A DNA stretch of 64,000 nucleotides from Burkholderiaceae bacterium (GTDB lineage: Bacteria; Pseudomonadota; Gammaproteobacteria; Burkholderiales; Burkholderiaceae_A), in assembly GCA_004214155.1 (NCBI GenBank), contig SGYQ01000007.1, positions 1 to 64,000 of the forward strand. Direction: 5' to 3'. Both the position numbers and the translations under genes were made by a program. Below the pieces are notes generated by a model. That model ran no database searches. It was not told the origin of the DNA and was given only the letters and a program-made list of their open reading frames with translations. The stretch's first letter is position 1. Each line of letters opens with the position of its first letter. Shown in pieces: positions 3,644 to 58,016 of this stretch.

Positions 3644-5088
3644 CGATCAACCTTCATCTGCTCTTCATAATCACGAAGCCAGGCCTTGACGACAAGATCA
3701 GTCTCCGCACTATTAAATATTCCAAATATATTCTCAAGTGATTCAACTACTCTTTTACTGGAAGCTTCTTCAAGTTCCGAGGACAGAAAAAAAACTAAGG
3801 CAGCACCGCTCGGGCCCAAACTTAGAACAGTTCCTTGATTTATTTCCAATTCATGTGAAAACAGTTCTCCCTTAAATTGTCTCAGAAGCTGAGAATACTG
3901 GTCACTATTTTGATCTTGATTGCTACGAAAAGGTAACACCACCTTTCGTAAAGATTTTTTCAATTTGCTATCCGCATTAACTTCTTCGAAAAAAGTATCT
4001 GCCTCCTCTTTAGCCACCTTATTCATTTTTTGCAACAAAATTTCAGACTTAATTTGATCTTTGACCACGTCAAATTGCATAGGAACCGCTTCATGTTGTT
4101 TCACTAAGTTTGCAGCGATGTGAAGCCCCTTTGCTACTTGAATCAGCTCCGTATTATAGTTTTCTATCAAAAAATCGTCAGAAAATAATTCAGACCTGAA
4201 TTTTGCATCGTTAAGAGCTCGCAAAGCATTATTATTAAGTTTTCCACCTCCTATAGCAGGTGCGTTTAAATCTAACCTAGTAATTCTTTGAACCTTCAAA
4301 TTAAACTTCTCGGCGACAGGATCTAAACTGGAGTTCTCCTCATAAAGCAGGTTCCCTATTTCATCGACCCCATCATCTCCTTCTAAAACTATAAAATCTA
4401 TATCGTACGTGGCAGGTATCACAAACCTTGATCCGTTATCATCAAAGAAATTCTTTACTTCCGTGTCCATAACCTTTACTTTATTTTTATATGATAAAGG
4501 TGAAAAAAGCTTCACACCGAAGGTTCTTTTTTCATTTTCTGCTCGGGCTAATTTCCTGACAATAGTTCTGGGAACAAAATTTGAAGCATTTAAAATCTCA
4601 GGAATCAAAGCTAAAGATAAGTCTGCTTTAAGGCGATTTTCAAAGTCAACCGTAGACATTCCCTGGCGACCTAATACTTTCTTTGCTTGATCTAAATTAA
4701 AAACACCTTTCTCATCATGAAACTCAGGTATTCCTAAAATTATAGTTTTTACATCACTATCCGAAACCCCTATTCTGGATGTTGAAACAACCTTCTGCAG
4801 AATAAATTGGTTAATCATATTATCAAGAGTTGCTCTCTTTACCTCATCCGAGTTCAACATCTCATCAGGTATATTATTTCCAACCCTGTTTTTAAAGTTT
4901 GTAACGAATTCCTGATGAACATTCTCCCAATTTCGTTTATATATATCGACCCCATCAACACTCGCAACAACTGGTTCCCTGTTAGGACTGAACTGATCCC
5001 AAGCACCAACAACTATAAAAGGCGGTATTACCAGCGCCAACAAAACAAATAAAAGAACCTTCTTTTTTTCTCTGATAATTTCAAACAT
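3601..5088 (-). CDS. ppiD: SurA_N/PpiD-like peptidyl-prolyl isomerase, membrane anchored
   Basis: MFEIIREKKKVLLFVLLALVIPPFIVVGAWDQFSPN N-terminal anchor; SurA_N-type helical region; overall PpiD-like layout. Confidence 0.7.
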   Translation of the reverse strand: MFEIIREKKKVLLFVLLALVIPPFIVVGAWDQFSPNREPVVASVDGVDIYKRNWENVHQEFVTNFKNRVGNNIPDEMLNSDEVKRATLDNMINQFILQKVVSTSRIGVSDSDVKTIILGIPEFHDEKGVFNLDQAKKVLGRQGMSTVDFENRLKADLSLALIPEILNASNFVPRTIVRKLARAENEKRTFGVKLFSPLSYKNKVKVMDTEVKNFFDDNGSRFVIPATYDIDFIVLEGDDGVDEIGNLLYEENSSLDPVAEKFNLKVQRITRLDLNAPAIGGGKLNNNALRALNDAKFRSELFSDDFLIENYNTELIQVAKGLHIAANLVKQHEAVPMQFDVVKDQIKSEILLQKMNKVAKEEADTFFEEVNADSKLKKSLRKVVLPFRSNQDQNSDQYSQLLRQFKGELFSHELEINQGTVLSLGPSGAALVFFLSSELEEASSKRVVESLENIFGIFNSAETDLVVKAWLRDYEEQMKVDRYLKVLLTDSAIAQ

Positions 5089-5557
5089 AGAGTACTCTCA
5101 AAATAAGTGCGGTTTCGGAAATAAGGATTAGAAATTAAGTCTGTACACAGTTCAGCAAATAGTATTAATTTTAAACCGTATTTTTTTCTGTGTAACTAAT
5201 TAACCCACTTTTTGTGCAGTTAGCTAAAAAAGTCTGCTTTGCTTTGCTAACAAAAGCCTAGTAACTGCATCCAATTGAGTGCAGCGTTTATATTTGGGAC
5301 GTATGGAAACCCCTAGCATCATTCCATTGGGTTGCATAATCAGCGACATCATAACAAGTACCCGCGAACTCAAATATATCCTCAGCTCCGTTGCAATACA
5401 AGCCATGTAAGCACTTAAAGTAATTTATTTATAAAATATTTACGCACTTGCTTTAACCGCAACTTAGAAAAACTTAATGCAAACAATAGACTTTCACAAA
5501 TTTTTTCTTAAAAAATAGAAATAACGCTTGGAACTGAAGGTTAGATAAATTTTTAAT

Positions 5558-6190
5558 TTAATGTAACTTTGCCAGCCCCAAATAGTTATATCCTGCAAAT
5601 TTCGGAACACCTTCAACATACCCCTGGGACAGTTGATCAATTTGGAACCCAGACTGAGAAATAATTGAAGGAATATCACGGGTCAATTGACATCCTCCAG
5701 CTATTTTTTTCCAATAAGGATTAATCATCTTTTGTAATTTCGCATCTTTATCGTTGATAGCAATTCCATGTTCGCAAAATAATAAATTGCCGTCTTTTTT
5801 CAAAACCCTCCTAATCTCAATATTAGCTTTAATAGGTTCAAGAATAGTACACATTGTGTAAGTAATTAAAACATTATCGACTGAGTCGTCAGGTAAGGGA
5901 ATATCCTCAGCGAAGCAGTTTAAAATATCTAGCGAAAAGCTAGTGTTTTTAATATTCCGTTTTGCGAGCTGCAATAGTTTTTTCGAGGGCTCAAGCGCCC
6001 ACAAATGATGGACTTTATCCTGGTTATAAAATGGTAAATTTAGACCCGAGCCAAAACCAATTTCAAGAACAGTGCCGCTAACTTTTGGCACTATAATTGA
6101 TCGCTGTACATCGAAGGCTTTATTATTACACGCGCAGTCGAGTAAGTGAGGTAAAACATTCTCATCATAAAATTTTTTTACGATTTCCAT
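5558..6190 (-). CDS. Class I SAM-dependent methyltransferase
   Basis: Motif I VLEIGFGSGLNLPFY, motif DSVDNVLITYTMCTI. Confidence 0.8.
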   Translation of the reverse strand: MEIVKKFYDENVLPHLLDCACNNKAFDVQRSIIVPKVSGTVLEIGFGSGLNLPFYNQDKVHHLWALEPSKKLLQLAKRNIKNTSFSLDILNCFAEDIPLPDDSVDNVLITYTMCTILEPIKANIEIRRVLKKDGNLLFCEHGIAINDKDAKLQKMINPYWKKIAGGCQLTRDIPSIISQSGFQIDQLSQGYVEGVPKFAGYNYLGLAKLH

Positions 6191-6245
6191 TTAATTTTAG
6201 TAAAATTTTGGGTTTGTGCTTTCCAGAATAGATACATTAGCCTTA

Positions 6246-6788
6246 TTAAATTGCTTTAATTATCGCTTCTTCCAATTTTTCCTTTGACGTTTCCCCCAAA
6301 AACTTTGCAATAAAATTATTGTCGGCATCAATAACAACCATATATGGAAGTCCTTTGCGCAAATTCCCCATTTGTTTTGAAAGATCGATGGCATCGTTGC
6401 CGCCGATGAGTATTTCGAATGTAATTCCGTTTTTTTTGACAAAATCTCTCACCTTGTCCGTGTTATCTACAGCGATACCAAGAAATGACACATTTTTATC
6501 CCTATATTGCTCCTCCAATTCTTTCAACATAGTTGTTTCTCTCACGCAAGATGCGCACCACGTGGCCCAAAAGTAGGCGATCATAACCTTACCCTCATAC
6601 TTTCTTAACGGCTGCATAGACCTATCAAATGCCTTGAAACTAGAATTAAAAAAGGCATCAACTTTTTTTCTATCAGCGACAATACGCTCCGAGTCTCTAT
6701 TATTGTTTATCGATCCATCTTCCACGCAACCAAATAGAAACACAGAAATGATGATCATATTGAACTTTAGAAGAATGTTACTCATCAT
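6246..6788 (-). CDS. TlpA-like thioredoxin-fold lipoprotein
   Basis: Lipobox-like LFGC; AYFWATWCASCVRE (CxxC); thioredoxin fold. Confidence 0.8.
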   Translation of the reverse strand: MMSNILLKFNMIIISVFLFGCVEDGSINNNRDSERIVADRKKVDAFFNSSFKAFDRSMQPLRKYEGKVMIAYFWATWCASCVRETTMLKELEEQYRDKNVSFLGIAVDNTDKVRDFVKKNGITFEILIGGNDAIDLSKQMGNLRKGLPYMVVIDADNNFIAKFLGETSKEKLEEAIIKAI

Positions 6789-6794
6789 ATACCC

Positions 6795-7256
6795 ATGGTT
6801 TTTGTAAAAATGTTTGCTACTTTATTTATAGTCTCTCCGACCGTTTTGGCCGAAGAAAAATCCCGGTTTCTTTTAAAAGATACTGAAATTTCTGTTGTTA
6901 AAGAAGGTAAAAAGGTTTACGGGACATATTGTGCCGCATGCCATGGTAAAAATCTAGAAGGTCAGCCTAATTGGGAGACATTTGGAGCGGACGGTCGTCT
7001 TCCTGCGCCACCCCACGATGAAAATGGGCACACCTGGCACCATCCTGACTCATATTTAGTTGATGTTGTATTGAACGGTTTCACGCCAGGAAAAAATAAA
7101 CCATTAGAATATGAAAGTAATATGCCTGCGTTTAAAAATATTCTAGACATAGACCAGATCATTTCGGCATTGAGCTACATCAAAAGCACGTGGTCCATTG
7201 ACTATCGAGAGTGGCAGGAAAATGCGACAAGAAATGACATGTCTACAGGCCAGTAG
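6795..7256 (+). CDS. Periplasmic c-type cytochrome
   Basis: Signal peptide; CAACHG haem motif; distal Met in NMPAFKNIL. Confidence 0.8.
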   Translation: MVFVKMFATLFIVSPTVLAEEKSRFLLKDTEISVVKEGKKVYGTYCAACHGKNLEGQPNWETFGADGRLPAPPHDENGHTWHHPDSYLVDVVLNGFTPGKNKPLEYESNMPAFKNILDIDQIISALSYIKSTWSIDYREWQENATRNDMSTGQ

Positions 7257-8643
7257 ATTTCAATTCAATGAAAGATTTTGCAAATTCTTCTTCATCCATA
7301 AGACATCGTAAATCTAAAAATAATGAGTCTTCCTTAATTCTGCCAATGATCGGAATGCTAAGTTTTCTAAAACTTCGCTCCAGTTTTGTAATTTGACTAC
7401 TTCTTTTACTTTTTTTGCTGTTGCTGCTAATTTTATATCCAAAACTAGGTAATTTATCTTCTGGTAGAGAACCGCTACCTACTTGTCCTTTCATATTAAC
7501 CATCTCTACTCTGAATTCCGGTTCCAACGCATTTTGGACCAAAAAGCAATTGCTTTCTGTCTGAGCTTTTATAAAGTCAACGCTTTTGGTTAATAGCCGC
7601 ATTGTAGTTAATTCTGTGGTCAAAGTTTCTTCTTTTAAATACATTCTCAGAACAGAATCTAACGCACACAAAGTGAGCTTACCCACGCGCAGGCATCTTC
7701 TCAAAGGATTTCTTTTTATTCTTTTAATTAATTCTTTATTGCCTGCAATTATCCCCGCCTGCGGTCCACCAAGCAGCTTGTCGCAACTAAAAAGAACGAG
7801 ATCAGTTCCTTTTATCAGAGAGCTTTGAATTGTCGGCTCCCGAGGAAGGCCAAACTTCTCCATTTCTAATAAAGTACCGCTACCTAAATCCTCGATGAAA
7901 GGAATTTTTCTTTTTTTACACAGGTCAGCTAGAGTCTCCTGATCTACGGAGGCAGTGAAACCCGTGATTTTGAAATTACTCCAGTGAACTCTCATGACCA
8001 TAGCCGTTTTCTCGGTTATTGCATCTTCAAAATCTTCCAAATGCGTCCTATTAGTAGTGCCGACTTCCACTAGTCGACAACCGGCTTTTCGCATAATATC
8101 AGGTATTCTAAAAGACCCTCCAATTTCAACTAATTCTGATCTGGAAACTATGACTTCCCTTTTTTGAGCAAGACTATTTAATGTAAGAAATACCGCTGCC
8201 GCGTTATTATTAACTATCGTGGCATCCTCAGCGTTAGTAAGTTCCTTTATTAGGCCAACGATATGATCATCTCTATCTCCGCGTTTTCCTTTAGAAATAT
8301 CATATTCAAGGGTCACAGGATTCGCATACTTATCTGCCACCTCCTCTATAGTTTTGCTTGGCAGCAGTGCTCTTCCCAAGTTAGTGTGTAGTACTGTTCC
8401 CGTAAGGTTGATAACTTTTTTCAGGGAGGGTTGACTAGATTCCTCCAACGCTTCTTCACATTTTTTCAAAATTAATTCTGCAGTAACGGATCTTATTTCG
8501 CCCGAAACTATCTTTTTCCGAAACTCAGCAGTTGTCCTGCGCAGGGTCTTGACGACGCTTTTCCTACCGTAGTTGAAGGCTAGCCCTTTACCATCTTCGA
8601 GGGATAGCATGAAATCGATACTCGGAATTAAATTGGCGTTCAT
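7243..8643 (-). CDS. selA: L-seryl-tRNA(Sec) selenium transferase
   Basis: NLTGTVLHTNLGRALLP; GTDLVLFSCDKLLGGPQAGIIAGNKELI PLP-lysine region; adjacent to selC and selB. Confidence 0.95.
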   Translation of the reverse strand: MNANLIPSIDFMLSLEDGKGLAFNYGRKSVVKTLRRTTAEFRKKIVSGEIRSVTAELILKKCEEALEESSQPSLKKVINLTGTVLHTNLGRALLPSKTIEEVADKYANPVTLEYDISKGKRGDRDDHIVGLIKELTNAEDATIVNNNAAAVFLTLNSLAQKREVIVSRSELVEIGGSFRIPDIMRKAGCRLVEVGTTNRTHLEDFEDAITEKTAMVMRVHWSNFKITGFTASVDQETLADLCKKRKIPFIEDLGSGTLLEMEKFGLPREPTIQSSLIKGTDLVLFSCDKLLGGPQAGIIAGNKELIKRIKRNPLRRCLRVGKLTLCALDSVLRMYLKEETLTTELTTMRLLTKSVDFIKAQTESNCFLVQNALEPEFRVEMVNMKGQVGSGSLPEDKLPSFGYKISSNSKKSKRSSQITKLERSFRKLSIPIIGRIKEDSLFLDLRCLMDEEEFAKSFIELKSTGL

Positions 8644-8652
8644 AAGAAATTT

Positions 8653-8749
8653 TGGCGGAAGAGAATAGGAGTCGAACCTACCGAGAATGACCTAACCACC
8701 CTCCCTGGATTTGAAGTCCAGACGCCCCACCGGGAAACGTTTCTCTTCC
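8653..8749 (-). tRNA. selC: tRNA-Sec (anticodon UCA)
   Basis: Reverse complement GGAAGAGAAACGTTTCCCGGTGGGGCGTCTGGACTTCAAATCCAGGGAGGGTGGTTAGGTCATTCTCGGTAGGTTCGACTCCTATTCTCTTCCGCCA; 8-bp acceptor, long variable arm, CUUCAAA anticodon loop, encoded CCA. Confidence 0.96.
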
Positions 8750-8754
8750 TTAGA

Positions 8755-10695
8755 TTAGTAGTCATCGAAACCAAAGACAGTAGAACACGAATTTTTAATT
8801 CTTCTTCCAGTGCTAAATCTGGTTGTTAATCCGGATCTGTCAAAAAACTCTAAAAATGGAATCGTAAGGCCTCTCGAAAGCTTCGTAACGGTTCTAAATT
8901 CGGCCATTGTAAATTTCTCCTTCCCTTTTGAGTTAGCGAGCTCTTCAACCTTTTTAGCTAGCCTTTGCACAGTCTCTGCCAGAAAATATTGGTTTTTTCT
9001 GATTTTGCATACGTGGCCTAACTCTTCAAGTTTCGCCATTAGAATCTCCCCTTTTTTAGCATTTATTTGTAATTCTGGAAATAACTCTGTAATTTGTGGA
9101 GGGCTAAGTTCATCTTCATGAATAACCTTTTCAATTTTTTGAAATAATATACGGTCTTCGTCAACCAATTTTGGGCGATGCTCAGGGTGGTAATATCTCG
9201 CCATCTTAACTTTAATAATCCCCAACTCCGTGATAAATTTTAGTAAAAAATTAAATGACTCTAAAGACATATCTCCCCCAACACCTTCAAAGAATGTATT
9301 TATGTCGGGTCCGTATATATCGAAATTATTTTTATGGTAGGCTTTTAACCACTGAACAACTCTTAGTTTAAAATTATCAACAAATGTTCGCTCAAAAACT
9401 AATGAGCCTCCCGTATATGGGATCTTTACAAGTCCACTATCATCAAGCCATTCAGCGATGTTATTCCTTCTTATATTAAAAATCTTTACTAACCAATCGT
9501 AATCAAAACCATTTCTCGCAAGTTTCATTAACCGGCCTTCAAGTCTTTCGGAGTTACTTTGTATACCTTCCAACAGAGCTTTTAGCAAGACAATGTTTTT
9601 TTTCTTTCGTCTGAATTTGCATTTTGCATCGGGATTCAATATTAGACCGCCACCCAACGTTCTGGTAGAATTTTCGTCTCTTACAATAAAGTGGTCTCCA
9701 CAAGTGGAAACAAAATTTTTCGCTGAGATAAATTGAACGAAACCAGAATGTCCAGGCAAAATTTCTTCTCCATGCAAAACCGCTAATTTTATTACTGTAT
9801 TCTGAGTACCAATGTGTAAATGAATTATGGAATTATGCTTCAAAGCTTTAGGTTCTGAATCCGATAAATGTAAAAACCCATCGACTCTTCTGGTGACCAG
9901 ACTTAAACCCGTTTCGACAATCCAGTTCCCTCGGCTGATCTCATTTTTCTTTAAGTTATTTCCCGTCAAATTTAAAGCACATCTATCGCCTACCCGTCCG
10001 ATAGTAGTTTCTTTAGACTGTGCTCGAATGCCCTTTACTCGCAGCTTTTTACCTTGAGGCAGAAGTGTAACATAATCGTTCTTTTTTATTTCGCCAGAAA
10101 ATATTGTGCCTGTAACAACTGTCCCGGCTCCATCTTTCGTAAAACATCGATCAATCGGTAAGCGAAAGTTTTGACTTATTTTCTTTGATCTTTTAACGAT
10201 ATTAGTGCTTAGCAAATAGTCTTTTAACTGTCGAATACCGTCCAAATTTTTATTCGAAGCCTGAAAAAATTGACAATCCTTTAAAAAAGATTTTCTGAGA
10301 AATTTTTTTATTCTTTCTATGACTATTTCGCACTCAGCGGGCCCTACCAAGTCCGTTTTCGTTACTACTACAGCACCGTCAGTAATTCCCAAATTTTCGC
10401 ATATAAGCAAATGCTCTTTTGTTTGTGGCATAACACCATCATCTGCTGCAACAACTAATAAACAAAAATCTATTCCGCATGCCCCCGCTAACATATTAGT
10501 AATAAATTTTTCGTGTCCTGGAACGTCTACAAATCCAATCATGTTACCCATCGGTGTAGATAGATAAGCAAAACCAATGTTTATGCTTATACCTCTTTTT
10601 TTTTCCTCTTCAAGAGAATCTGTATCAACTGAGGTAAGAGATTTTATAAGCGTAGTTTTCCCGTGATCAATATGTCCAGCAGTTCCAACAATCAC
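8755..10695 (-). CDS. selB: Selenocysteine-specific elongation factor SelB (GTG start)
   Basis: IVGTAGHIDHGKTTLIKSLT, DVPGHEKFITNMLAG, TKTDLVG; C-terminal winged-helix region; adjacent to selC/selA. Confidence 0.95.
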   Translation of the reverse strand: MIVGTAGHIDHGKTTLIKSLTSVDTDSLEEEKKRGISINIGFAYLSTPMGNMIGFVDVPGHEKFITNMLAGACGIDFCLLVVAADDGVMPQTKEHLLICENLGITDGAVVVTKTDLVGPAECEIVIERIKKFLRKSFLKDCQFFQASNKNLDGIRQLKDYLLSTNIVKRSKKISQNFRLPIDRCFTKDGAGTVVTGTIFSGEIKKNDYVTLLPQGKKLRVKGIRAQSKETTIGRVGDRCALNLTGNNLKKNEISRGNWIVETGLSLVTRRVDGFLHLSDSEPKALKHNSIIHLHIGTQNTVIKLAVLHGEEILPGHSGFVQFISAKNFVSTCGDHFIVRDENSTRTLGGGLILNPDAKCKFRRKKKNIVLLKALLEGIQSNSERLEGRLMKLARNGFDYDWLVKIFNIRRNNIAEWLDDSGLVKIPYTGGSLVFERTFVDNFKLRVVQWLKAYHKNNFDIYGPDINTFFEGVGGDMSLESFNFLLKFITELGIIKVKMARYYHPEHRPKLVDEDRILFQKIEKVIHEDELSPPQITELFPELQINAKKGEILMAKLEELGHVCKIRKNQYFLAETVQRLAKKVEELANSKGKEKFTMAEFRTVTKLSRGLTIPFLEFFDRSGLTTRFSTGRRIKNSCSTVFGFDDY

Positions 10696-45869: not shown

Positions 45870-47075
45870 TTAAACCTGCTGCACACCAATGAGTTGCTCA
45901 TCAATACTTGTGTCAGCATCACTAGCACCTCTGCCTAATACATTTTGATATAAAGCGTTTATATATTCATCGTCCGTTGGATTTTCTCCGTACATATTTT
46001 TAAACTCGGGAGAGGCCATAAAGTTAGAGGCGATTTGCAGTATTGATAGTCCATTACTTTCCATGTCGTTCATATGATAGGCCACACCAGGCATATCAGG
46101 TGTTCTTGCAAACGCAGCTTGGTACAGTCTATAAGCTTGACCTGCTGTTTCTCCTGCATCGATGTCTAATGCTAATGTGCCATCAGAAAACTCTAATCTC
46201 TTAAAATTCTGTAGTGTATCGTTTCCAATATTTGACGCAGACATTGTCCATGAATCACCGTCTGAATTTCTTGAAATACTATAATCGCCTCTACTTCCTG
46301 TGATTTGTAATTTTGTAACAGTTGACGATCCGGAAAATATTTCATTAGCCTGATTAATTAAAAAGGCTACAACATCATTTGTAGATAGATTATCATTCGT
46401 AGATACATTACTGTCCGTAGATTCCGAGCTGTCTGTAGATTCCGAGCTAACTGACTGCGCATTTACATAGTCTTGAAGTAACTGGGAATAAGATCTCGTA
46501 GTTCCATCTCCAAACGAGAAAATCTCAACATTTGAAACAAAAAGTGATTCATCCGCATGTGGAGCATCTACCTGGACAACATTTCTGTTTCCGTCAAATC
46601 CAGAAAATGTATAGACATCTTGGCTTCGACTAAGCGACAAAGTGTCAGTCCCACCCTGACCATTCAGTGATATGTCGTTTTGCGACGAAAACCAAGCTAA
46701 TTGATCATCACTACTCCCACCATAAATTGTAGAGTTCGGTTCAGTATTTAGTGCAGCCATTGCATGATTCCACCAGCCAAGTTGAACTGCTTGCACACCT
46801 GGATCGTCTTCTCTGTAATAAGCTACTGTTTCAGCAACTGTGACCGAGGCATTATCGAGAATCCATTGCTTGACGCCATTATACTCGTAATCAGCAAACG
46901 TGATAGTGCCTGAGATAGGTTGCGCGCCATTATATCTTAGATCCCGTCCACCCCATTGATATTGCTCATCAGAAGTCCGCCAATGGCCATTAGTAGTTCC
47001 AAGGTAGTAATCAAATGACAATTGGCCTGGAACAACTAAATCTAAGTAGTCACCGTATACGAATAATCGCGCCAT
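45870..47075 (-). CDS. Secreted RTX-like protein with DUF4214-like C-terminus
   Basis: STIYGGSSDDQLAWFSSQNDISLNGQGGTDTLSLS RTX-like; AGQAYRLYQAAFARTPDMPGVAYHMNDMESNG...EYINALYQNVLGR DUF4214. Confidence 0.75.
   Translation of the reverse strand: MARLFVYGDYLDLVVPGQLSFDYYLGTTNGHWRTSDEQYQWGGRDLRYNGAQPISGTITFADYEYNGVKQWILDNASVTVAETVAYYREDDPGVQAVQLGWWNHAMAALNTEPNSTIYGGSSDDQLAWFSSQNDISLNGQGGTDTLSLSRSQDVYTFSGFDGNRNVVQVDAPHADESLFVSNVEIFSFGDGTTRSYSQLLQDYVNAQSVSSESTDSSESTDSNVSTNDNLSTNDVVAFLINQANEIFSGSSTVTKLQITGSRGDYSISRNSDGDSWTMSASNIGNDTLQNFKRLEFSDGTLALDIDAGETAGQAYRLYQAAFARTPDMPGVAYHMNDMESNGLSILQIASNFMASPEFKNMYGENPTDDEYINALYQNVLGRGASDADTSIDEQLIGVQQV
46042..46173 (-). repeat. Paralogous DUF4214 segment, copy A
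   Basis: Encodes the same 44 aa as 56148-56279 with many synonymous differences. Confidence 0.85.
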
Positions 47076-47250: not shown

Positions 47251-48204
47251 CTAAATCGATAAAAACGTACCATTATTTTGCTCTGTAACAGCTCGCATTA
47301 GAATTGGAAAACGGTTGGTAGATCTTGGTGAGCTAAATTCAATTGCATGAATTCTAGCAATCTTGGACTTAGTTATCTTGTTAAAATTAAGAGCATTGAT
47401 TTCGTTTAATGCTTGATCAAAATTCCCTCCTGAAAAATCATCACCAAAGACATAAATAGATAACTTTTGATTTGCTTTCCCATACGTTTTCAGTGCTTCC
47501 TTAATGCCTTCTACAGGACTACTATTTGACATAGCAGTCCATATTTTAAAAAGATCTATGGAATTTTTACGCATCTTCTTTGTGTCTGTAATCCATTTTC
47601 CTTTGTAAGCAGTTATTAAATATTCGCCATTATCATTTAGGATCTGAAACCCTTTCACCGTGGGGTGGATGTTAATTATATTTTCGATATGTCTTGTAAC
47701 CTTATTCCATATATCTTTCATAGAGCCAGATGTATCAACAATGAAAACTACATATTCACTATCTACAGGAATTCCTCCAACTTCTTCTACTCTTCTTTTT
47801 GCAGTAGTACTTCGAATACTTGCTCTTTTTTTTGTTGCAATATCATCAACCAATGAATCTAACATGACCTGCATACTTGCTAACTCAGAGAGTTGATTCT
47901 CTAAAATTGTTTCTTTTGAAGACAACCTCTCTGCTAGCATCTCATTTACTTCTGATGTATCTGCAACACCGGAACTCTTCTTTTTTTGTCCCTCAGAAAT
48001 ACTCATTAGGTCCGACTTCAAATTTGCCAATTTTGAGATTTGTACACTTAATTCATCGTACTTCGTTTCCATTGCCTCTTCATTGACAGCAAAATCAGAA
48101 ATTAATACTAGCAATACAACTGCACCGAATCCGCACGATATGATATCTAAAAACGACAACCCAAAAACATCACTATCACTCCTTCGTTTTTTCATCATGG
48201 CCAC
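47251..48204 (-). CDS. N-terminally anchored vWA protein (TolR/ExbD-like TM segment)
   Basis: TM GLSFLDIISCGFGAVVLLVLIS; coiled coil; MIDAS VVFIVDTSGSMKD. Confidence 0.8.
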   Translation of the reverse strand: MAMMKKRRSDSDVFGLSFLDIISCGFGAVVLLVLISDFAVNEEAMETKYDELSVQISKLANLKSDLMSISEGQKKKSSGVADTSEVNEMLAERLSSKETILENQLSELASMQVMLDSLVDDIATKKRASIRSTTAKRRVEEVGGIPVDSEYVVFIVDTSGSMKDIWNKVTRHIENIINIHPTVKGFQILNDNGEYLITAYKGKWITDTKKMRKNSIDLFKIWTAMSNSSPVEGIKEALKTYGKANQKLSIYVFGDDFSGGNFDQALNEINALNFNKITKSKIARIHAIEFSSPRSTNRFPILMRAVTEQNNGTFLSI

Positions 48205-49256
48205 GTACCTGCAGGGCTGATTAACATTCCTCTAGTAGAACGAGCCCAATTAACATATGCGGGAGCTGCGATAGGGTCTCCCTCAAGAGGTAATAAAATT
48301 ACATTGACCCTGGTTCCCGGCAAGGAATGCTTCCGTACCGCATGACTAAAAAGCTCCACTCTACACTGACCTGAGATAATATTTTTATTTTTGTAAAAGG
48401 AATTGCAACCACTTATACTACCCAAAAGCTTTTCGTTCATTTCACCTTGCGTAGGTAATCCATCTGTAATGACATAAATATCCGTTGGTTTTTGTTTAGC
48501 AGCAACTTTTAACGCTTTCTCGAAATTTGTTGGCCCAAGAGGAACTAGCTTTTTTAACTCTAATTGTGTCATTCTCAACGCGGCAGAATCCGCTGCACTA
48601 CTCCAAAATCCAGGTTGCAATACCTTCGCTTTATCATTGTAGGATATGACCTGATATTGAGATGCTTTCGGAAGCCTAGCTAAAAGCCATAAAACAATTC
48701 TTTGAGTCCTTCTCCACTTAGCAGCAGAGACCTTTGCTCTATTTGAGGAACTTTTCGTTTTTAAAATATCGATAAGTTTTTCATTGGTCATCGAGGAACT
48801 GGTATCCAATAAAATTGCAATCTTTTTTCCTTCAACCTTTAATCCTATTAAATATTCCTCTTCTCCTGTGCCAGATAATTTTACTTTGTCTGTCTTCACC
48901 TTGTTAGATACGCTATCTGCTATTCTGCTCTTTGCTTCAATTCTTTTCTGGATAGATATTAGTTCACGCTCGTTGCGAGCAATTTGTTGGTCAAGCGACT
49001 GGATCTCTTTCGCAATTTCGTTAGTTCGATTCTTCTGACTAGTTTCTTGATTCAGCATGTCTTGACCGCGAGAAGTTAAACTCCTTTTTTTTTCTTCTAA
49101 CTCAGTAATTTCTTCCATTAAGTCAGAATCTGTTGGGCTATTTTCCAAACCCTTCGGAGCGTCTTTTATTAAAATAAATAAAAATACTAACGCTCCCAGT
49201 CCACAACACATAATGTCAATGAAAGCTATGCTGAATCCGGAAACTTGTCTTCTCAT
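48195..49256 (-). CDS. N-terminally anchored vWA protein (TolR/ExbD-like TM segment), second copy
   Basis: TM GFSIAFIDIMCCGLGALVFLFILI; coiled coil; MIDAS IAILLDTSSSMTNEK. Confidence 0.8.
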   Translation of the reverse strand: MRRQVSGFSIAFIDIMCCGLGALVFLFILIKDAPKGLENSPTDSDLMEEITELEEKKRSLTSRGQDMLNQETSQKNRTNEIAKEIQSLDQQIARNERELISIQKRIEAKSRIADSVSNKVKTDKVKLSGTGEEEYLIGLKVEGKKIAILLDTSSSMTNEKLIDILKTKSSSNRAKVSAAKWRRTQRIVLWLLARLPKASQYQVISYNDKAKVLQPGFWSSAADSAALRMTQLELKKLVPLGPTNFEKALKVAAKQKPTDIYVITDGLPTQGEMNEKLLGSISGCNSFYKNKNIISGQCRVELFSHAVRKHSLPGTRVNVILLPLEGDPIAAPAYVNWARSTRGMLISPAGTWP

Positions 49257-49304
49257 ATTCCTTTGCCAACAATATTTACAAAAGAATTAATTGATTTAAT
49301 CCCA

Positions 49305-50063
49305 CTAAGTTTTGCTAATCCTAGACAATAACTTAGCTTCACAATACTCTCTTATCTCAACCACCTCTCCATCTTGTAACCTTTGTAGTTGATGTAAAAA
49401 AAACATAAGGATGATACTGATAATCAAGGCGACAAATGTAGAGTTAAACGCAACGCCTAAGCTATTGGTCATACCCGTAATATCACCCTGGACCGCCTGG
49501 TCCGCCTTAGCTAGCGCCTCTCCAATCCCACGCACAGTTCCAATAAATCCGATAGAGGGTATTGCCCAAATTAAATACCGTATCATAGAGTTTTCAGCAT
49601 CTTGTTTCGAAGCAAGTGCTTCTAAAGAAGAATCAATCGATTCAGAAGTATTCTGAATATTATTCGTGGTTTTGAATCTTCTCAAGCTTGTAAGCGCTAT
49701 CTCAATCAGAGGTTTTTTTTGCTCCTTAAAGCCCAAACTTAAAAGTTTTTCTAAAATTTTATTAACCTGGCTAAGATTAGCAGACAAGTCCCCCAAAAAA
49801 TCAACATCATAGAGATATCTTGATTTCATAATGGATGACATCTTCGAAAGGATTAAAAATAAAGTCCACAAAAAAAGAATTATGCAAACTTCCTGTTCAA
49901 GATCTTTTAAAATCACTGCAAATGTTCTCGGGACCGCGAGTCCCGCTTCGGCTGCGGTCTGGATTGCGAGATCAGAAACAGGCCAGATATACCCAACGTA
50001 TATAAGATGAACAAGCAATATAGCAATTACTAGAACAGAAATATTTATTGTTGTATCTTTCAT
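49305..50063 (-). CDS. MotA/TolQ/ExbB-like proton channel
   Basis: RYLIWAIPSIGFIGTVRGIGEALAKA...GVAFNSTFVALIISIILMFFLHQLQRLQDGE. Confidence 0.82.
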   Translation of the reverse strand: MKDTTINISVLVIAILLVHLIYVGYIWPVSDLAIQTAAEAGLAVPRTFAVILKDLEQEVCIILFLWTLFLILSKMSSIMKSRYLYDVDFLGDLSANLSQVNKILEKLLSLGFKEQKKPLIEIALTSLRRFKTTNNIQNTSESIDSSLEALASKQDAENSMIRYLIWAIPSIGFIGTVRGIGEALAKADQAVQGDITGMTNSLGVAFNSTFVALIISIILMFFLHQLQRLQDGEVVEIREYCEAKLLSRISKT

Positions 50064-50065
50064 AT

Positions 50066-50194
50066 TTAAATCCCAACAGGAAAAGTTACAGGAGCATTCA
50101 AACTTATAGTCCCCTGGTTACCAGAAAAACCATACTTGTAGGAAACAAATAACAAACCAAAAATACACAGGAACATCACTAGTTTTTTATTCAT
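50066..50194 (-). CDS. Small single-TM/secreted peptide (42 aa) inside the operon
   Basis: MNKKLVMFLCIFGLLFVSYKYGFSGNQGTISLNAPVTFPVGI; stop lies 2 nt before the channel gene ATG, start 3 nt after the previous stop. Confidence 0.6.
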   Translation of the reverse strand: MNKKLVMFLCIFGLLFVSYKYGFSGNQGTISLNAPVTFPVGI

Positions 50195-50197
50195 GCC

Positions 50198-52198
50198 TTA
50201 CTCCGCATTTCTTGCAATCCTAAACCCAACATCTTCCCTCTTTCCTATCAATCCCTCACGGTAAGATGCCCGTAATTCAGTAACACTACTAGACTTCCAA
50301 CTAGATCCTTTTATAACATTTGACTTTGAAGGACGGCTATTTACTAAATCTTCATATATTTTTTTACTATCGTAAGGGTTCAGTGAATAATAGTCACCCA
50401 CCCACTCACTCACATTTCCAAACATGTCAAAAAGCCCATTTTTTTCTGCAGCAAAACTCTTTACAGGAGCAATTTCCGCATGACTATCAGTATACCGTGC
50501 AACATAACCCTTCGTAATTCCCTTTGCTGATTCGTCAGCGATATTGCCTGCCCCAGAAGGGATTTTATTTCTATTTCCCCAAGAATAGATAGTAGGTGCT
50601 CTTTTCTTAAACTTTCGACTTACCCACTCCCATTCAGATTCACTTGGCAAACGGTACCCATCAGAATTCTTTGAAAAAACCACACCGTTTCCTCGAATTG
50701 TGTAATACGGTTTCAATCCTTCTCTCTTACTTAACTCGTTACAGAATCTTACCGCCTCAATCCATGTCACATTGGTAACTGGTAGGTTTGAGGATTTACC
50801 TTTTCCAACAATTTGCTGGTACTGCTTTTCCGTCACCTCGTGCTCAGCGACATAAAACGCTCTACTCATTTTCACACTTCGCAAAAACTCATTAGCTCTT
50901 TGACCAACTTCATTTCTAGGCGCCCCAAGAATAGCAACATCTCCCCGTGGTTTAAACAAACGCATTGCCATTGCAATTGATGACACACTATACCTTTTTT
51001 TCTGTTGCGCTCTTTTCTGCTCTATAACACTAACCAATGTTTTTTCAATATATACCTTTTGATCTTTTTCCGGTTTCACAGAAAATTTTTCATCTACGTA
51101 CCCATTCTTTCTTAGTACTACCTCGTGGGAAATTACAGGGAGCTCTATGGTTAAAGGAGTATTCCCCATATTTTTTTTATTAATGTAAACATTAGAACCT
51201 GGTTTGGAATTCAAAACTACTGTACCTTGAGCACCCTCTAAGTTGACTGCAACTTTTTTCCCGACATAATCTCTAGGATAAAATCGCACACTTTTTCTAG
51301 CGAACCCTTTTTTTTCATACGATACTACGTACTCTTTATCAGGGGAGAGAGAAAACGATTTACCGGGATCGCTCTTTTTCCCACCAAAGATAAAAACTCC
51401 TCCCTTAGGAAAAACATCAAATTGTACTGTTACGTTATCCTTACTTAGTCGGATAGTCTTTACAAGAGAATTTTTTCCATATGGCAAATTAATTTTCTCT
51501 TGATAACTTTTATAACTTTTTTTATTTACTAACACCTCATACTGACCAGAGAAAAGAGTTGTTTTCGCTACTTCAGTGTCTTTGTATGATTTTCCATTAA
51601 TCATAATTTCACCGGGACCATTTTCGAGCTGAACAATTAGTTCGGACATTGACCTCTCTACCTCAAAAGTTTTCTCTACAACTTTGCCAACACCTAAAGA
51701 GAAATCAAATTGAATTGGTTTAAAAAACTTTGATTCGATTGTTAACTGATATTCTCCCGATTCGAGATCCGACTGAAACTTATTTCCAACGGCTACCACA
51801 TCGTCAGACAATATCCATTTAACGTCAGGAAAATTAGAAGATACGTTCAAATTAACACCCGATGGTTGTGGCAATAAAGTTACACTAAAAACCCTATTAT
51901 TTTCATTTTCTCCTAAATCAATTATTTTCTTTTGATAACCTGGAGCCTCAACCTGTACAGAAATTGCATCTGATAATTTTATAATTTTCGAGCCAAGTGA
52001 AAAACCAGTCCCAGATTTTATGGATAAGGTGGAGAGACTACTTATCTCAGAAGGAAGGACCTTTATTGAAATAGCACTAGTATAGAGAAAGAACCCCGCT
52101 AAAATAATCCCTATAACCCCAGCAAATAATGATAATTTGCTATATAAAGAAAGTTGCTTATCTCTTGCCTGTTTTAACTCTTCTTCAAATCCGCTCAT
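50198..52198 (-). CDS. Membrane-anchored PEGA-repeat protein with C-terminal FGE-sulfatase/SUMF1-like domain
   Basis: N-terminal TM; GTVVLNSKPGSNVYINKKNMGNTPLTIELP (PEGA); EHEVTEKQYQQIVG...GYRLPSESEWEWVSR...NGLFDMFGNVSEWVGD...FRIARNAE (FGE). Confidence 0.85.
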   Translation of the reverse strand: MSGFEEELKQARDKQLSLYSKLSLFAGVIGIILAGFFLYTSAISIKVLPSEISSLSTLSIKSGTGFSLGSKIIKLSDAISVQVEAPGYQKKIIDLGENENNRVFSVTLLPQPSGVNLNVSSNFPDVKWILSDDVVAVGNKFQSDLESGEYQLTIESKFFKPIQFDFSLGVGKVVEKTFEVERSMSELIVQLENGPGEIMINGKSYKDTEVAKTTLFSGQYEVLVNKKSYKSYQEKINLPYGKNSLVKTIRLSKDNVTVQFDVFPKGGVFIFGGKKSDPGKSFSLSPDKEYVVSYEKKGFARKSVRFYPRDYVGKKVAVNLEGAQGTVVLNSKPGSNVYINKKNMGNTPLTIELPVISHEVVLRKNGYVDEKFSVKPEKDQKVYIEKTLVSVIEQKRAQQKKRYSVSSIAMAMRLFKPRGDVAILGAPRNEVGQRANEFLRSVKMSRAFYVAEHEVTEKQYQQIVGKGKSSNLPVTNVTWIEAVRFCNELSKREGLKPYYTIRGNGVVFSKNSDGYRLPSESEWEWVSRKFKKRAPTIYSWGNRNKIPSGAGNIADESAKGITKGYVARYTDSHAEIAPVKSFAAEKNGLFDMFGNVSEWVGDYYSLNPYDSKKIYEDLVNSRPSKSNVIKGSSWKSSSVTELRASYREGLIGKREDVGFRIARNAE

Positions 52199-53666
52199 CT
52201 GTTCTGATATCAAAGGAAAGGTTATTTTTGTTTTTTGGGTCAATCGATATGGACACACTCTTCGATTTATAACCCTCTCTAGAGGCTTCTAAAACATAAT
52301 TTCCAGCAGACAATTTAATAGTTTTTTCCTTAAACGTACCCACTACACCTACCCTTCTGACAATAACTTTTGATTTTCCGTCAGACACCAACATCACATC
52401 AAGCTTTTTAGAATATTCCTCTAAAACCTTTTGTAATTGAATAAGTCTAGTATTCAATGAAGGACTTAGCTCTTCGACTCTATCAGATGCAGAAACAAAT
52501 TGATTCATACGCTTTCGGCTCTTCTGCTTCAAGAGTATATCCTTGTTAGCAAGCACTTTTTCCACCTCATCTTGAATAAGCACTATTTCCTTAGCAATTT
52601 TCAATTCACCCTTTAAATAATCATTATCTTTATCCATAAGACTCGCCTTTTGTAAGGCATCCAGTCTTGGCTTCCATTGATCATCCGCTTTATGCTTATT
52701 AGCAATATCTACTAGCTTTTCAATTTTTATACGTAATTCAGCTGTTTGTATTTTTTGATCTAGATTTTTAATATCTATATTTTGAGGATCAATTCGTCTT
52801 GCTTTGCCCAAAATCTCTTTTGCCTCTGCGTATCTCCCATCCTCAAATGCTTTATGTGTTTTTTCGAGTAAATTGTTTAACCTTCCCGTTCTCATCTGAG
52901 AATTTAAGTAACTTAATCTATTTTTATATTCCGAATTCTTCGGCAAAATCTGTAGAATTTTTTCTAACTCTTTAATCTCATCTTTGTACCTTCCGGCATT
53001 TTTTAATGTTGCTATGGAATTCTCGATATCAATAATTTCCGGCAGTTTTAAAATTTGCTTTTGTAGTCTTTCTGCTTCATCAGTCTTTTTAACCTCAATT
53101 GTTTTAGTAATAGAATCAGATGCATTTTGTAAGTCCCGAGCTACGAAATAGGCATTTGCCTTTTTGAAATATTTTGTATATTCTTCTTCCCGCTCCTTGA
53201 AATACGTTTTAGCAAGAGAACTAGCACCATTTATTTTTTCCAGCGCTACTAGGTAATTTTTCTGCGAATAGTCATTTAACGATTTGTTTTTTTTCTCAAC
53301 TATTTTGACCAACTCATTGCTTTTCCATTTCGTGTTTCCAGCATCTTCTATCTTGTCTGCGTAAGTAGCTTCGAATTCTTCTAGTTTAGACTCATATTTA
53401 TTTTTTACTTTTTCATCATCTCCGTTAGAGGGAGACTTAGTGATGATACTATCAGGGACTGCTTTTTCTGGATTTTTTAAACTCTCCGGATTTTTTTTAT
53501 CGGAGATTTGTTCGGTCTGAGATAGACTCGCGACGATATCATCAATGAAAAATAAATAAGCAGTAACTAAAACTAAACCCGCAAGAAAAAATCCAATGAT
53601 CAATACAAAGTTTTGTTTATTTTGATTTTTAGCGGATTCTAGTTGAGAGCCTAACTCTTCTTTCAC
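52185..53666 (-). CDS. Membrane-anchored TPR/coiled-coil protein with C-terminal PEGA-like domain
   Basis: N-terminal TM NFVLIIGFFLAGLVLVTAYLFF; helical repeats; KTIKLSAGNYVLEASREGYKSKSVSISID. Confidence 0.7.
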   Translation of the reverse strand: MKEELGSQLESAKNQNKQNFVLIIGFFLAGLVLVTAYLFFIDDIVASLSQTEQISDKKNPESLKNPEKAVPDSIITKSPSNGDDEKVKNKYESKLEEFEATYADKIEDAGNTKWKSNELVKIVEKKNKSLNDYSQKNYLVALEKINGASSLAKTYFKEREEEYTKYFKKANAYFVARDLQNASDSITKTIEVKKTDEAERLQKQILKLPEIIDIENSIATLKNAGRYKDEIKELEKILQILPKNSEYKNRLSYLNSQMRTGRLNNLLEKTHKAFEDGRYAEAKEILGKARRIDPQNIDIKNLDQKIQTAELRIKIEKLVDIANKHKADDQWKPRLDALQKASLMDKDNDYLKGELKIAKEIVLIQDEVEKVLANKDILLKQKSRKRMNQFVSASDRVEELSPSLNTRLIQLQKVLEEYSKKLDVMLVSDGKSKVIVRRVGVVGTFKEKTIKLSAGNYVLEASREGYKSKSVSISIDPKNKNNLSFDIRTDERI

Positions 53667-54932
53667 CTACAACTGGACCTCTGGAGTTTTTTCAACTGCA
53701 TAAATTTCTTTTAGGAAAACCCTCCACTTAGTAAACTGCTCCTTCGCATCACCCGTTAATTCTTGTGTTTTTTCTTCAAACTCCACAACTTGAGGAGACA
53801 ATGCAATATCAACAGATTGTCCTAATTCTTCTAATGCTTCTGCATGTATTTTTGCCTCTTTATTTTTTTTAAAACTGTTCCCTATCATTGCCGCACCTGC
53901 AACACCTGCAGCAACTGCTCCAATAGCTCCAGCCGCATCCTTTGTCGCGTTGTAATCTTTGTCATTTGGATTCCCGCCAGCTCCTGCAGCTGCTACTGCA
54001 AGTCCCAGTAAAAGAGCTCCAACGATAGCATCTCCTGTAGCTTTTGATTTTGCTTTTTCAATTGCAAGCGCTTCAAGATGACTTTGCTCCTGCCACTCTA
54101 AATAAGAAACATTCATTTGCTCACTGAATTCACTGTAATGAGACTGAAGATTATCAATAAAAAGTTGGTCTCTAACTTTAATAGCTTGCACTCTTTTGTA
54201 CATTGGATCCGAATCACTCGGAAGCATTGTGAGTTTATATGCCTTTCCACCTATACCCAACATTCCAGCATCTTCATACGCAAGATACTGTTGAAACTTT
54301 TCATCTAAATAACTAGCTGCAAACCGAAGATCGGTAACCTTTTTAATTTCAGCCAGCTTTGAATCATCTTTTTTCATTAAAAGCTTTACAACATAACTAC
54401 TAATTTTCTTAAAAACAGGCTCATATGCATCTATGTTTTCGTTACGCGCGATTTCGTGAAATTTATCCGGCACTTCATAACTGAAAGACTTACTGCCCCA
54501 CTTGCGACCCGTGCTATCAGTGACAAGTACTTTTAATTTTAAATCTCTTCCATCAGATTGCTCTATCGTGCCTTGAACATAAATATCCGAACTAGCCCTC
54601 AAATCAGGAACTACTCTAACAGCGCCAAAACGGGATTCCTTTTCAAGCGTTTCTTTTAACATCCATGCAAATCGATTTGCTTCAGCATTTCGTAGCTCAG
54701 GCCAAACACCAAGCTCTTCCCATTTTGACTGATCTGCCGGTATACCAGGATCAAATGATGGTATTGCAACATCAATGAATTGCTTTCCTACCCCTTTAAA
54801 TGCAGGGTTCTCTTCCTCTAAAATTGTGGAGGATAATTTAGGGCCTACAAGAGGAATCTCCTTCATTGTGGCAACACAACCTGAAAGTAAAAATGAAACT
54901 AAAGTGATGTAAACCGTAATATTTCGAAACAT
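53667..54932 (-). CDS. Lipoprotein of unknown function, glycine/alanine-rich C-terminal segment
   Basis: Lipobox SFLLSGCVA; AIVGALLLGLAVAAAGAGG...AAGAIGAVAAGVAGAAMIG. Confidence 0.7.
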   Translation of the reverse strand: MFRNITVYITLVSFLLSGCVATMKEIPLVGPKLSSTILEEENPAFKGVGKQFIDVAIPSFDPGIPADQSKWEELGVWPELRNAEANRFAWMLKETLEKESRFGAVRVVPDLRASSDIYVQGTIEQSDGRDLKLKVLVTDSTGRKWGSKSFSYEVPDKFHEIARNENIDAYEPVFKKISSYVVKLLMKKDDSKLAEIKKVTDLRFAASYLDEKFQQYLAYEDAGMLGIGGKAYKLTMLPSDSDPMYKRVQAIKVRDQLFIDNLQSHYSEFSEQMNVSYLEWQEQSHLEALAIEKAKSKATGDAIVGALLLGLAVAAAGAGGNPNDKDYNATKDAAGAIGAVAAGVAGAAMIGNSFKKNKEAKIHAEALEELGQSVDIALSPQVVEFEEKTQELTGDAKEQFTKWRVFLKEIYAVEKTPEVQL

Positions 54933-54961: not shown

Positions 54962-55632
54962 CTATTTTTCCGATAAACCCTTATATCTTCGATACTCATT
55001 CCACAACTTCTTTTTCTTTTGAGGATCTTTTTCTGCTATCGCAGCTTGCCTTAACTGCGCCTCCACTACAGAATCATTATCTGCAGGAGGTATATCTTCT
55101 GGAAGCTTCCCATTGTCGCTAAATTTGTCATTTTTTTCAACATTTCCACTTGTCAAGCTATCTGTTTGTGTAGCAGATTCCTCTGCGCTTTCCTGATTAC
55201 CAGATGCACTCTGATTTGACTCACTAGCTTTTTCGGTGCCCGATATACCCTTACTCGGACTTGACGCGTCAGATTGAGACGAGCCTTGCATTTGAGACCC
55301 ATTTCCGTCCACGCCACCTGATGAACTGCTCGCGGAATCTGCAGAAGAACCACCACCACCTCCTCCAGCTGAACCTCCCCCACCCCCGCTACTACTACTA
55401 GAACTACTGGAACTTTCAGAACAATGTTCAAACTCGCTCAGTGAGTCGTAAAATGCATCGTCCATTTCCTGAAGTTTTTCATTTATATCTGTAGTATCTG
55501 AATCTAATTCAATAGTGATATCTGAGCAATCCACTTCTTCAGTAATGCTTTTTTCCAGGGCATAAGAGTTCGACATCGTTAACGAAGTAAAAGAAAAAAA
55601 GACAAAAATTATTCCAAGTTGCTTCTTTCTCA
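54962..55632 (-). CDS. Secreted Ser/Gly-rich low-complexity protein
   Basis: Signal peptide; CSESSSSSSSSSGGGGGSAGGGGGGSSADSASSSSGG; start at MRKKQLG is approximate. Confidence 0.6.
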
Positions 55633-55643
55633 TTTTGCCTGCC

Positions 55644-55847
55644 TTATGGAGGACAGTCTCCTCCACGTTGTTTTCTATTGTGACAATGGTACTCACCAGT
55701 TTTTCTATTAAAGTGACAACCACATTTGTCGGTACCACCACTATGCTGAACTACTTGCTTTGAACAATTTTTAAGGTGGGTTTCTTCATGGCTATAAACC
55801 GAAAAAGGAGATACTACAATAAGAAATAGAAATAAGCCTTTTTTCAT
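55644..55847 (-). CDS. Small secreted Cys/His-rich protein
   Basis: MKKGLFLFLIVVSPFSVYSHEETHLKNCSKQVVQHSGGTDKCGCHFNRKTGEYHCHNRKQRGGDCPP. Confidence 0.65.
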   Translation of the reverse strand: MKKGLFLFLIVVSPFSVYSHEETHLKNCSKQVVQHSGGTDKCGCHFNRKTGEYHCHNRKQRGGDCPP

Positions 55848-55883: not shown

Positions 55884-58016
55884 TTAAACTGGCATCCAAA
55901 TCCCTGATTCAATTTGTGGTGCAACCAACGATATATTTTCTGGAGACTCTGCAAAAAATACTAAAGTCGTTTCCCAGTCAGTTGTTCCTTGCTCAAATCT
56001 ATCTTTATAATAATCGACTTCAAATTCTTGTGGGGTTCTTCCTAGAACATTCTGGTACAGAAGGTTAATATATTCTTCTTCTGTAGGGTTTTCTCCGTAC
56101 TGAGTTTTAAACTCAGGCGATGCAATAAAGTTAGCTGCTACCTGCGTGATTGATAGTCCATTACTTTCCATATCATTCATATGATATGCAACACCCGGCA
56201 TGTCTGGTGTACGCGCAAAAGCTGCTTGATATAGTCTGTAGGCCTGGCCTGCAGTCTCACCAGCATCAATATCTAGTGCGATGTTCATCGTAATATTACC
56301 ATTTATACCAAATTCAATTCTTTCTACGTCATGCAAAATATCAGTCCCTCTTGAATTACCACCAGCATTAATATGACTCAGACGGAAAACCCCGGGCTCA
56401 ATGTTTTCAATATCCCATGTACCATACTTGTCATGCCACCAATCTATAAAATAGACATCTAATCCATTTCCAGCATAAATCAAATCATCGCCCTGCGAGT
56501 TGTGTATCCTATCATCACCATTTAAGCCTCGAACAATATCGTCTCCCCCTTGAGGATGAAAGATGTCATTACCTACTCCTCCATATAAAATATTCGTGTC
56601 TTCATCCCCATTTACTTCTAATCTATCCTCATTAGTCGTATCTAATAGGACTCCACTAATTTCTTTATTCCCGATACGGATAGAAAATGTCTCGTCTCCC
56701 TCCGTAATATTATCTCCCGCAAAATGAAGTGTAACTGTATGTTCGATCTCAGAACCCATTTTTTCTAAGTAGTGCCCTTCATCCGAATAAAACGACCCTT
56801 CCTCTCCCGGGAATGAGCTTGCACTGTATAACTTGAGATTCCCAGTCAACTCCGTGATGTCGTGGTCGTCGAAATACCATTTCCTTTCTTGAAAATCTTG
56901 TGGACTCAATCCAGAAATTGAGTAGTCCACGACGGTATCAGATTCACCAGAGTAATATATACTGCAAAAATACCATCTCCCTTCAGGAGAATTTTGAGTT
57001 TGTCCCGGGGTAAGCTCAAATCTAATGTTTTCGTAATTTATCGCATAAGAGGTATCATTTACTAAAATACTAGACGTTACGTTATTCACTGTTAAATTTA
57101 ATTGTTCCGTACCCTCAGTCTTATTATCATTCAAAAGGCTGATATTAATTGTAGATGTACCATCACTTCCAACTACAGATTGTCCAACCAGCGAATTAGA
57201 CAGTATGTCGTCTACTTGCAACCCCGATATCGAATAATCAAATATTGAACCTGCTGGTAAATTTGTTGACACTTGAAATGATGCGGTTTCCCCTTCGTTA
57301 ACACTGTTTTGTAATGCCCTGACGCTGTGACTAGGTACATTGGTCTGATTCAAATCGTTAGAACTTAAAGCATTTTCCAACCAATATCTGTGGCCTTCCA
57401 TGGCAGTTAACCATGATCCAGTAGAGACTATGCCAACAGCATATACGCCTGTTGAATCTTGATAAAAAACTGGACCTCCAGAATTTCCCGGATTAATCTC
57501 GAGATTTGAAATGCTAATAAAATTATCAACAATGTTTTTTGACGCAAACCCGGAATCATACATCGGTTGAGTCCCGTAACCACCTGGATGTCCTATAACC
57601 TCAACTGCTCCTGATGAAAAATTCCAATCTATACCAAAAGACCCATAGGTATCTGCCAGGTTTGTATCCATGCTAAGCAAAGCAATATCGAGTTCAGAGC
57701 CTGCTTGCGAAAGAAAACGAAAATCCCCTGCAAGTAGGTATCCGTCGTTGTTGGGGTCAAAATTCGGAAAATACTCTACTTTATTTGGTCTATAAAAAAC
57801 ATTATTAAAATCATCAGGGTCATAGGAAGGATAAACTTTTATTGAATCTGCTACTCGGCCAAAATGACCATCGTAAATTACATGCGCAGCGGTAAGAACA
57901 TCATTATTTTGACCGACTATAAATCCGGTACCTATGTATGTTTGGTTCCCCCAAGTGCTCTCAATAAAACAAACAGCAGTGGCAGGGTATAAATCATCAT
58001 TAATTTCATAACTCAT
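55884..58016 (-). CDS. Secreted trypsin-like serine protease with Calx-beta-like, RTX and DUF4214-like regions
   Basis: Triad motifs LTAAHVIYDG, ELDIALLSMD, NPGNSGGPVF; EGTEQLNLTV/EGDETFSIRIGN; GGVGNDIFHPQGGDDIVRGLNGDDRI; DUF4214 C-terminus. Confidence 0.85.
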   Translation of the reverse strand: MSYEINDDLYPATAVCFIESTWGNQTYIGTGFIVGQNNDVLTAAHVIYDGHFGRVADSIKVYPSYDPDDFNNVFYRPNKVEYFPNFDPNNDGYLLAGDFRFLSQAGSELDIALLSMDTNLADTYGSFGIDWNFSSGAVEVIGHPGGYGTQPMYDSGFASKNIVDNFISISNLEINPGNSGGPVFYQDSTGVYAVGIVSTGSWLTAMEGHRYWLENALSSNDLNQTNVPSHSVRALQNSVNEGETASFQVSTNLPAGSIFDYSISGLQVDDILSNSLVGQSVVGSDGTSTINISLLNDNKTEGTEQLNLTVNNVTSSILVNDTSYAINYENIRFELTPGQTQNSPEGRWYFCSIYYSGESDTVVDYSISGLSPQDFQERKWYFDDHDITELTGNLKLYSASSFPGEEGSFYSDEGHYLEKMGSEIEHTVTLHFAGDNITEGDETFSIRIGNKEISGVLLDTTNEDRLEVNGDEDTNILYGGVGNDIFHPQGGDDIVRGLNGDDRIHNSQGDDLIYAGNGLDVYFIDWWHDKYGTWDIENIEPGVFRLSHINAGGNSRGTDILHDVERIEFGINGNITMNIALDIDAGETAGQAYRLYQAAFARTPDMPGVAYHMNDMESNGLSITQVAANFIASPEFKTQYGENPTEEEYINLLYQNVLGRTPQEFEVDYYKDRFEQGTTDWETTLVFFAESPENISLVAPQIESGIWMPV
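56148..56279 (-). repeat. Paralogous DUF4214 segment, copy B
   Basis: Encodes ALDIDAGETAGQAYRLYQAAFARTPDMPGVAYHMNDMESNGLSI, identical to copy A. Confidence 0.85.

Follow-up and report, generated by a model that had tools for sequence, protein, structure and literature searches.

A pair of membrane-anchored vWA proteins as probable axle of a MotA/TolQ/ExbB-type motor encoded in a conserved eight-gene operon

To our knowledge, few kinds of 5:2 ion motor exist, and each of the known ones drives a different process: flagella, outer-membrane uptake and stability, gliding, secretion or defence. TMH-vWA genes forming heterologous pairs with tolQ homologues, and accompanied by neither tolR nor exbD, were described in 2025 (Mol Biol Evol, PMC12204202). 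According to the portion of that paper used here, the transpore helix of the encoded proteins carries the Asp of MotB, ExbD and TolR, and AlphaFold3 complexes place this Asp inside the Thr ring. Pairs of transpore-helix vWA (TPH-vWA) genes by tolQ-like genes are presented in its Fig. 4c,d, with Idiomarina loihiensis as the seed. The same portion reports no phenotype for vWA transducers, and no experimental report on the phenotype of the pair studied here was found in the literature.

The pair is located in a 64,000-nucleotide stretch of a Burkholderiaceae contig (SGYQ01000007.1, positions 1 to 64,000; the window), in which the minus strand carries, between 47251 and 55741, the genes sgr, lip, tpr, fge, micro, mot, vA and vB in this order (Table 1). 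As in the TPH-vWA proteins, in so far as these are described in the part of PMC12204202 considered, vA and vB start with one TM helix that is followed by a vWA domain, the helix contains an invariant Asp of the axle type, and the two genes form a heterologous pair adjoining a tolQ-like gene. There is no tolR, exbD or motB nearby and no SHLS motif in the vA/vB helices read, the exception being a MotB match at one related locus (L178, see below). Every defining feature of TPH-vWA that was tested, as set by the description in that part of the paper, is present in the window pair.

Table 1. Genes of the operon and their positions in the window
Gene	Product	Coordinates	Strand	Remarks
sgr	predicted secreted Ser/Gly-rich protein	54962..55741	-	conserved C-terminal stretch LWNEYRKYKG
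lip	lipoprotein	53667..54932	-	invariant Cys19; modelled domain weakly like TolB N-domain and PelC
tpr	TPR-repeat protein with a single TM helix and a PEGA/CarboxypepD-like end	52185..53666	-	N-terminal helix by hydropathy
fge	one N-terminal TM helix, PEGA domains, FGE-sulfatase fold	50198..52258	-	PorK/GldK-like by sequence
micro	42-aa predicted secreted protein	50066..50194	-	C-terminus ISLNAPVTFPVGI; FPVDI in most other copies
mot	channel of the MotA/TolQ/ExbB type, probably with four TM helices	49305..50063	-	invariant Thr176 and Thr209; Glu of TolQ/ExbB replaced
vA	first of two TM-coiled-coil-vWA proteins; putative subunit of the axle	48195..49256	-	MIDAS DTSSS
vB	second of two TM-coiled-coil-vWA proteins; putative subunit of the axle	47251..48204	-	MIDAS DTSGS

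The original prediction had placed one Asp in the single N-terminal TM helix of both vWA proteins and had listed a C-G-x-G-A pattern, a coiled coil and a MIDAS DTSxS as common to them, and these features were all recovered. Peptide GLSFLDIISCGFGAVVLLVLIS is present in the open reading frame of vB and peptide GFSIAFIDIMCCGLGALVFLFILI in that of vA, and the Asp residues were located as D20 of vB (codon 48147-48145) and D14 of vA (codon 49217-49215). Hydropathy analysis gave exactly one hydrophobic helix in each protein, and the Asp falls within the first part of this helix. From the amino end, both proteins consist of a short Arg/Lys-rich segment, the TM helix, the C-G-x-G-A motif, the coiled coil and the vWA domain. 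The Arg/Lys-rich segment in front of the helix implies an N-in topology, which would place the vWA domain in the periplasm. vA scored above the Pfam VWA_2 cut-off (36.5 bits vs 27), and vB reached no Pfam vWA cut-off. A structure-database search with the vB sequence returned almost only coiled-coil matches. The AlphaFold2 model of vB (pLDDT mostly 73-94 in the vWA domain and 70 over the whole chain) matched vWA folds with a Foldseek probability of 1.0 and a TM-score, by target, of up to 0.70. Judged from this model, the C-terminal part of vB is a vWA fold, although it lies below the Pfam cut-offs.

The Asp of the helix does not vary among the 13 vA and the 27 vB sequences that were aligned. 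It is also present in vA and vB of further families, which were retrieved by HMM and not by motif, in a reading that leaves out the vB helix of L180, where the open frame is over-long. As judged from these alignments, its conservation is beyond chance. The two proteins are homologous (cross-matches of 1e-5 to 1e-12; hhalign 99.5% between the helix profiles), thus the common Asp is to be counted as one inherited feature and not as two independent observations. Most of the coiled coil drifts while the Asp stays invariant in both paralogues.

The helix had been predicted to be TolR/ExbD-like, and this was not borne out by HMM comparison. Neither vA nor vB had a Pfam match to ExbD/TolR (PF02472), and comparison of the helix profile with this family gave an hhalign probability of only 0.5-3%, with a score equalled by 21 of 100 column shuffles. 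Membership of the two proteins in the ExbD/TolR family was rejected on the grounds of the missing Pfam match and the low hhalign value. Compared with MotB, the helix profile aligned with Asp-on-Asp register over 24-45 columns at a probability of 9-29% (1.6% for vA alone). The score was reached by none of 100 column shuffles, which is a lenient control because shuffling destroys the hydrophobic pattern as well. MotB_plug (PF13677) and the OmpA-like domain had no Pfam match in vA or vB at E values up to 1. The comparison suggests that the vA/vB helix may be homologous to that of MotB. With a profile that is not that of ExbD and only weakly that of MotB, homology to the axle helices falls short of proof.

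A distant type of relative, with the helix SALDLFASAMGAFIL, was encountered in L182, L183 and a third sequence; L182 and L183 represent this distant type among the surveyed loci. In L183 a single vWA protein carries it, encoded close to a MotA-type gene in an operon (4659-9591) with FHA, PP2C-type and trypsin-FHA genes. The L182 operon (5563-10171) has FHA, PP2C-type, trypsin-FHA and protein-kinase-like genes, and its protein has the helix and a coiled coil, but no vWA match.

The gene directly upstream of vA and vB, mot, scored above the curated cut-off of PF01618 (MotA/TolQ/ExbB; 55.9 bits vs 22.9). Three TM helices are clear by hydropathy, and a more polar GTV helix brings the probable number to four. 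The channel-lining residues Thr176 and Thr209, invariant in 13 sequences, align with the matching Thr residues of TolQ and MotA of the same genome, and the Glu of TolQ/ExbB is replaced, as in MotA. A search for solved structures with the mot profile gave none at E 0.001, and a plasmid protein search with the channel gave three partial matches only. Four channel genes of the genome are intact, and one more match, on contig C33, is only a fragment of 66 residues. Three of the intact genes adjoin a canonical partner, in the arrangements MotA-MotB (C1), TolQ-type with ExbD-type (C13) and ExbB-ExbD-ExbD (C30); mot is the sole intact channel gene without a canonical axle and has vA and vB as neighbours instead. 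The ExbD and MotB profiles detected both positive controls, and with them neither the 30 related neighbourhoods examined nor the window between 40000 and 60000 yielded a gene of these kinds. In a later survey, a MotB-profile match (1e-7) was seen behind vB at L178 (12227-13025).

The operon, including vA and vB beside mot, recurs in about 20 bacterial families. Where the contig was long enough, L009-L022, L063-L078 and the majority of L162-L186 showed these genes in an unchanged order, except that mot follows vB in L176 and L181. Relatives with names include the Betaproteobacteria MAGs TMED82 and TMED41, Methylophaga, a Thiotrichaceae MAG and other Gammaproteobacteria MAGs. vB was detected in three of the eight genomes searched of the window's own genus, in 17 of 399 genomes across the phylum and in 39 of 369 across the class (28 with strong matches). 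When 41 genomes were searched for vA, it was found in two congeners besides the window and in one genome elsewhere in the order (G430), and in none of the other genomes of the window's family. Such a patchy distribution suggests transfer or repeated loss. Wherever a vB-bearing locus could be read far enough, a full vB was accompanied by an adjoining vA.

Two peculiarities of the related loci were noted. Many copies, e.g. L063, L064 and L164, contain between mot and vA an extra gene of ~1.3 kb that the window lacks; its product (about 430-450 aa) had no Pfam match and, by eye, is perhaps actin/Hsp70-like. In the copies read from L068-L078, no ATG, GTG or TTG stands ahead of the vA TM helix. A conserved CTG, which in most of these copies comes a few bases after an AGTAGG-like stretch, suggests that CTG may serve there as the vA start codon.

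We consider it likely that the region 47251-50063 (mot, vA and vB) encodes an ion-driven rotary motor of the 5:2 type, with vA and vB as the axle and with vWA heads that bind partners from the operon. The proposed axle pair carrying vWA heads has good support. From the heteromeric stator pair proposed originally, we retain the different axle subunits and the replacement of the periplasmic domain by vWA, for which the partnerless channel, the pair kept together across families and the invariant channel Thr residues argue; the ExbD/TolR-like helix was given up. We infer the assembly, and with it stoichiometry (1:1 pairing), rotation, ion use, direction of force, target and biological role, as follows. 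mot would form a pentameric ring, inside which one vA helix and one vB helix would make up a two-helix axle, with the Asp of each acting as ion carrier and facing the threonines of the ring. Ion flow would rotate the periplasmic coiled coil carrying the two vWA heads, whose MIDAS sites would bind partners. The likeliest of these are the operon's own TPR/PEGA, FGE/PEGA, lipoprotein and small secreted products, and energy of the inner membrane would thereby be passed to the outer membrane.

Two separate motors, one of mot rings with vA homodimers and the other of mot rings with vB homodimers, would give the same genomic picture with one common channel gene. The situation would resemble the debate on AglRQ and AglRS of Myxococcus, where AglRQS also comprises one channel gene and two axle genes (PMC9389320), and it would agree with the homology of vA and vB and with the presence of an Asp in each. 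We regard this arrangement as rather unlikely. The constant company of vA beside full vB in loci read far enough, together with the different vWA domains and MIDAS surroundings that the two proteins retain, favours the heterodimer, without proving it. Still less probable is a plain membrane-anchored vWA pair, active in adhesion or assembly, with a structural Asp and a channel working separately. MIDAS-bearing vWA domains usually serve binding, and the match of the helix profile to known axles is weak, but such a pair accounts poorly for an Asp that is invariant in both paralogues while the coiled coil mostly drifts, and for the partnerless channel gene constantly alongside. That vA and vB are TonB/TolA-like transducers docked outside the ring, with an unlinked ExbD/TolR as the axle, is very improbable: a first vWA family of such layout exists (PMC12204202, in the part used here) and there are three ExbD-type genes elsewhere in the genome, but these adjoin their own channels, the vA/vB helices read have no SHLS/His docking motif, and the invariant residue is Asp, as in axle helices.

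Among the candidate partners of the proposed vA/vB axle, lip has a modelled domain with a weak likeness to the TolB N-terminal domain and PelC (E only 0.014-0.024), and a sequence search for solved structures related to lip found none. PorK/GldK were among the best relatives of fge in the structure database. fge is without the usual Cys pair, which we take to be the catalytic pair of FGE enzymes, and an active formylglycine enzyme was rejected for this reason. DUF4214/RTX-type proteins are encoded on both flanks of the operon (window 45870-47075 and 55884-58016, minus strand); they were rejected as operon members because the search of related loci revealed no homologue. A PHROGs search gave nothing useful, and our literature search found no paper on an FGE/PEGA/TolQ/vWA operon.

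The smallest gene, micro, lies between fge and mot, encodes a signal-peptide-like start and is absent from ORF lists made at 80 or 100 aa. Being below the usual ORF size limits, it was probably missed by annotation. Besides the window, it was located in L009-L022, L063-L078 and L162-L186. In 46 sequences, some of them near-duplicates, the C-terminal residues are conserved and mostly read FPVDI at the very end; in the window and near relatives the tail is FPVGI. Codon differences at positions 1, 2 and 3 numbered 4380, 3073 and 8994 (all pairs, non-independent), that is, third positions vary most, as expected of a coding gene. No paper on the FPVDI tail was found in the literature search. MIDAS sites tend to bind an acidic group, and it is from this preference that the idea of the FPVDI tail as a MIDAS ligand derives. 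As the tail of the window has Gly for Asp, the C-terminal carboxylate would have to serve at the MIDAS there. We tentatively suggest that the operon may encode a complete, undescribed envelope-spanning machine, made up of a rotary motor with a vWA-heterodimer axle, a scaffold of FGE fold and PEGA domains similar to GldK, a lipoprotein with a TolB domain and a secreted microprotein. The conserved FPVDI tail of the microprotein would then be the ligand of a MIDAS site in one of the vWA heads or of some other component in the periplasm.

Compared with known systems, vA and vB resemble MotB, weakly, in the position of the Asp and in a helix pattern that is in register, whereas MotB has MotB_plug and an OmpA domain where they carry vWA. 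They agree with ExbD/TolR (PF02472) in general layout, in that the tail on the cytoplasmic side is short, the only TM helix contains an Asp, a domain lies in the periplasm and the channel partner is of the TolQ/ExbB type; unlike ExbD, with which there is no detectable sequence match, their periplasmic part consists of a coiled coil and vWA. The operon is reminiscent of GldL/GldM with GldK/PorK of the type IX system in combining a 5:2-type motor with a non-enzymatic envelope protein of the FGE fold. In contrast to GldK, fge combines PEGA domains with one TM helix at its N-terminus; its score is far below the GldK cut-off, and nothing else in the operon was recognised as a T9SS gene. In Zorya defence, ZorAB similarly joins a MotA-type channel to an axle protein; assignment to Zorya was rejected, as the ZorA2 match was only 20 bits and there was no ZorB-type protein. 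The idea of an axle pair is sound, but it was already published in 2025 (PMC12204202, in the part considered), and vA and vB add a member to the pairs described there. The eight-gene operon is likely new beyond that paper, in the considered part of which neither the wider operon nor the microprotein is mentioned. If the proposed motor is real, its axle with adhesion-type vWA heads at the end would represent a distinct route for force through the envelope, and the eight-gene operon with its microprotein offers concrete partners for testing the 2025 prediction of the gene pair.
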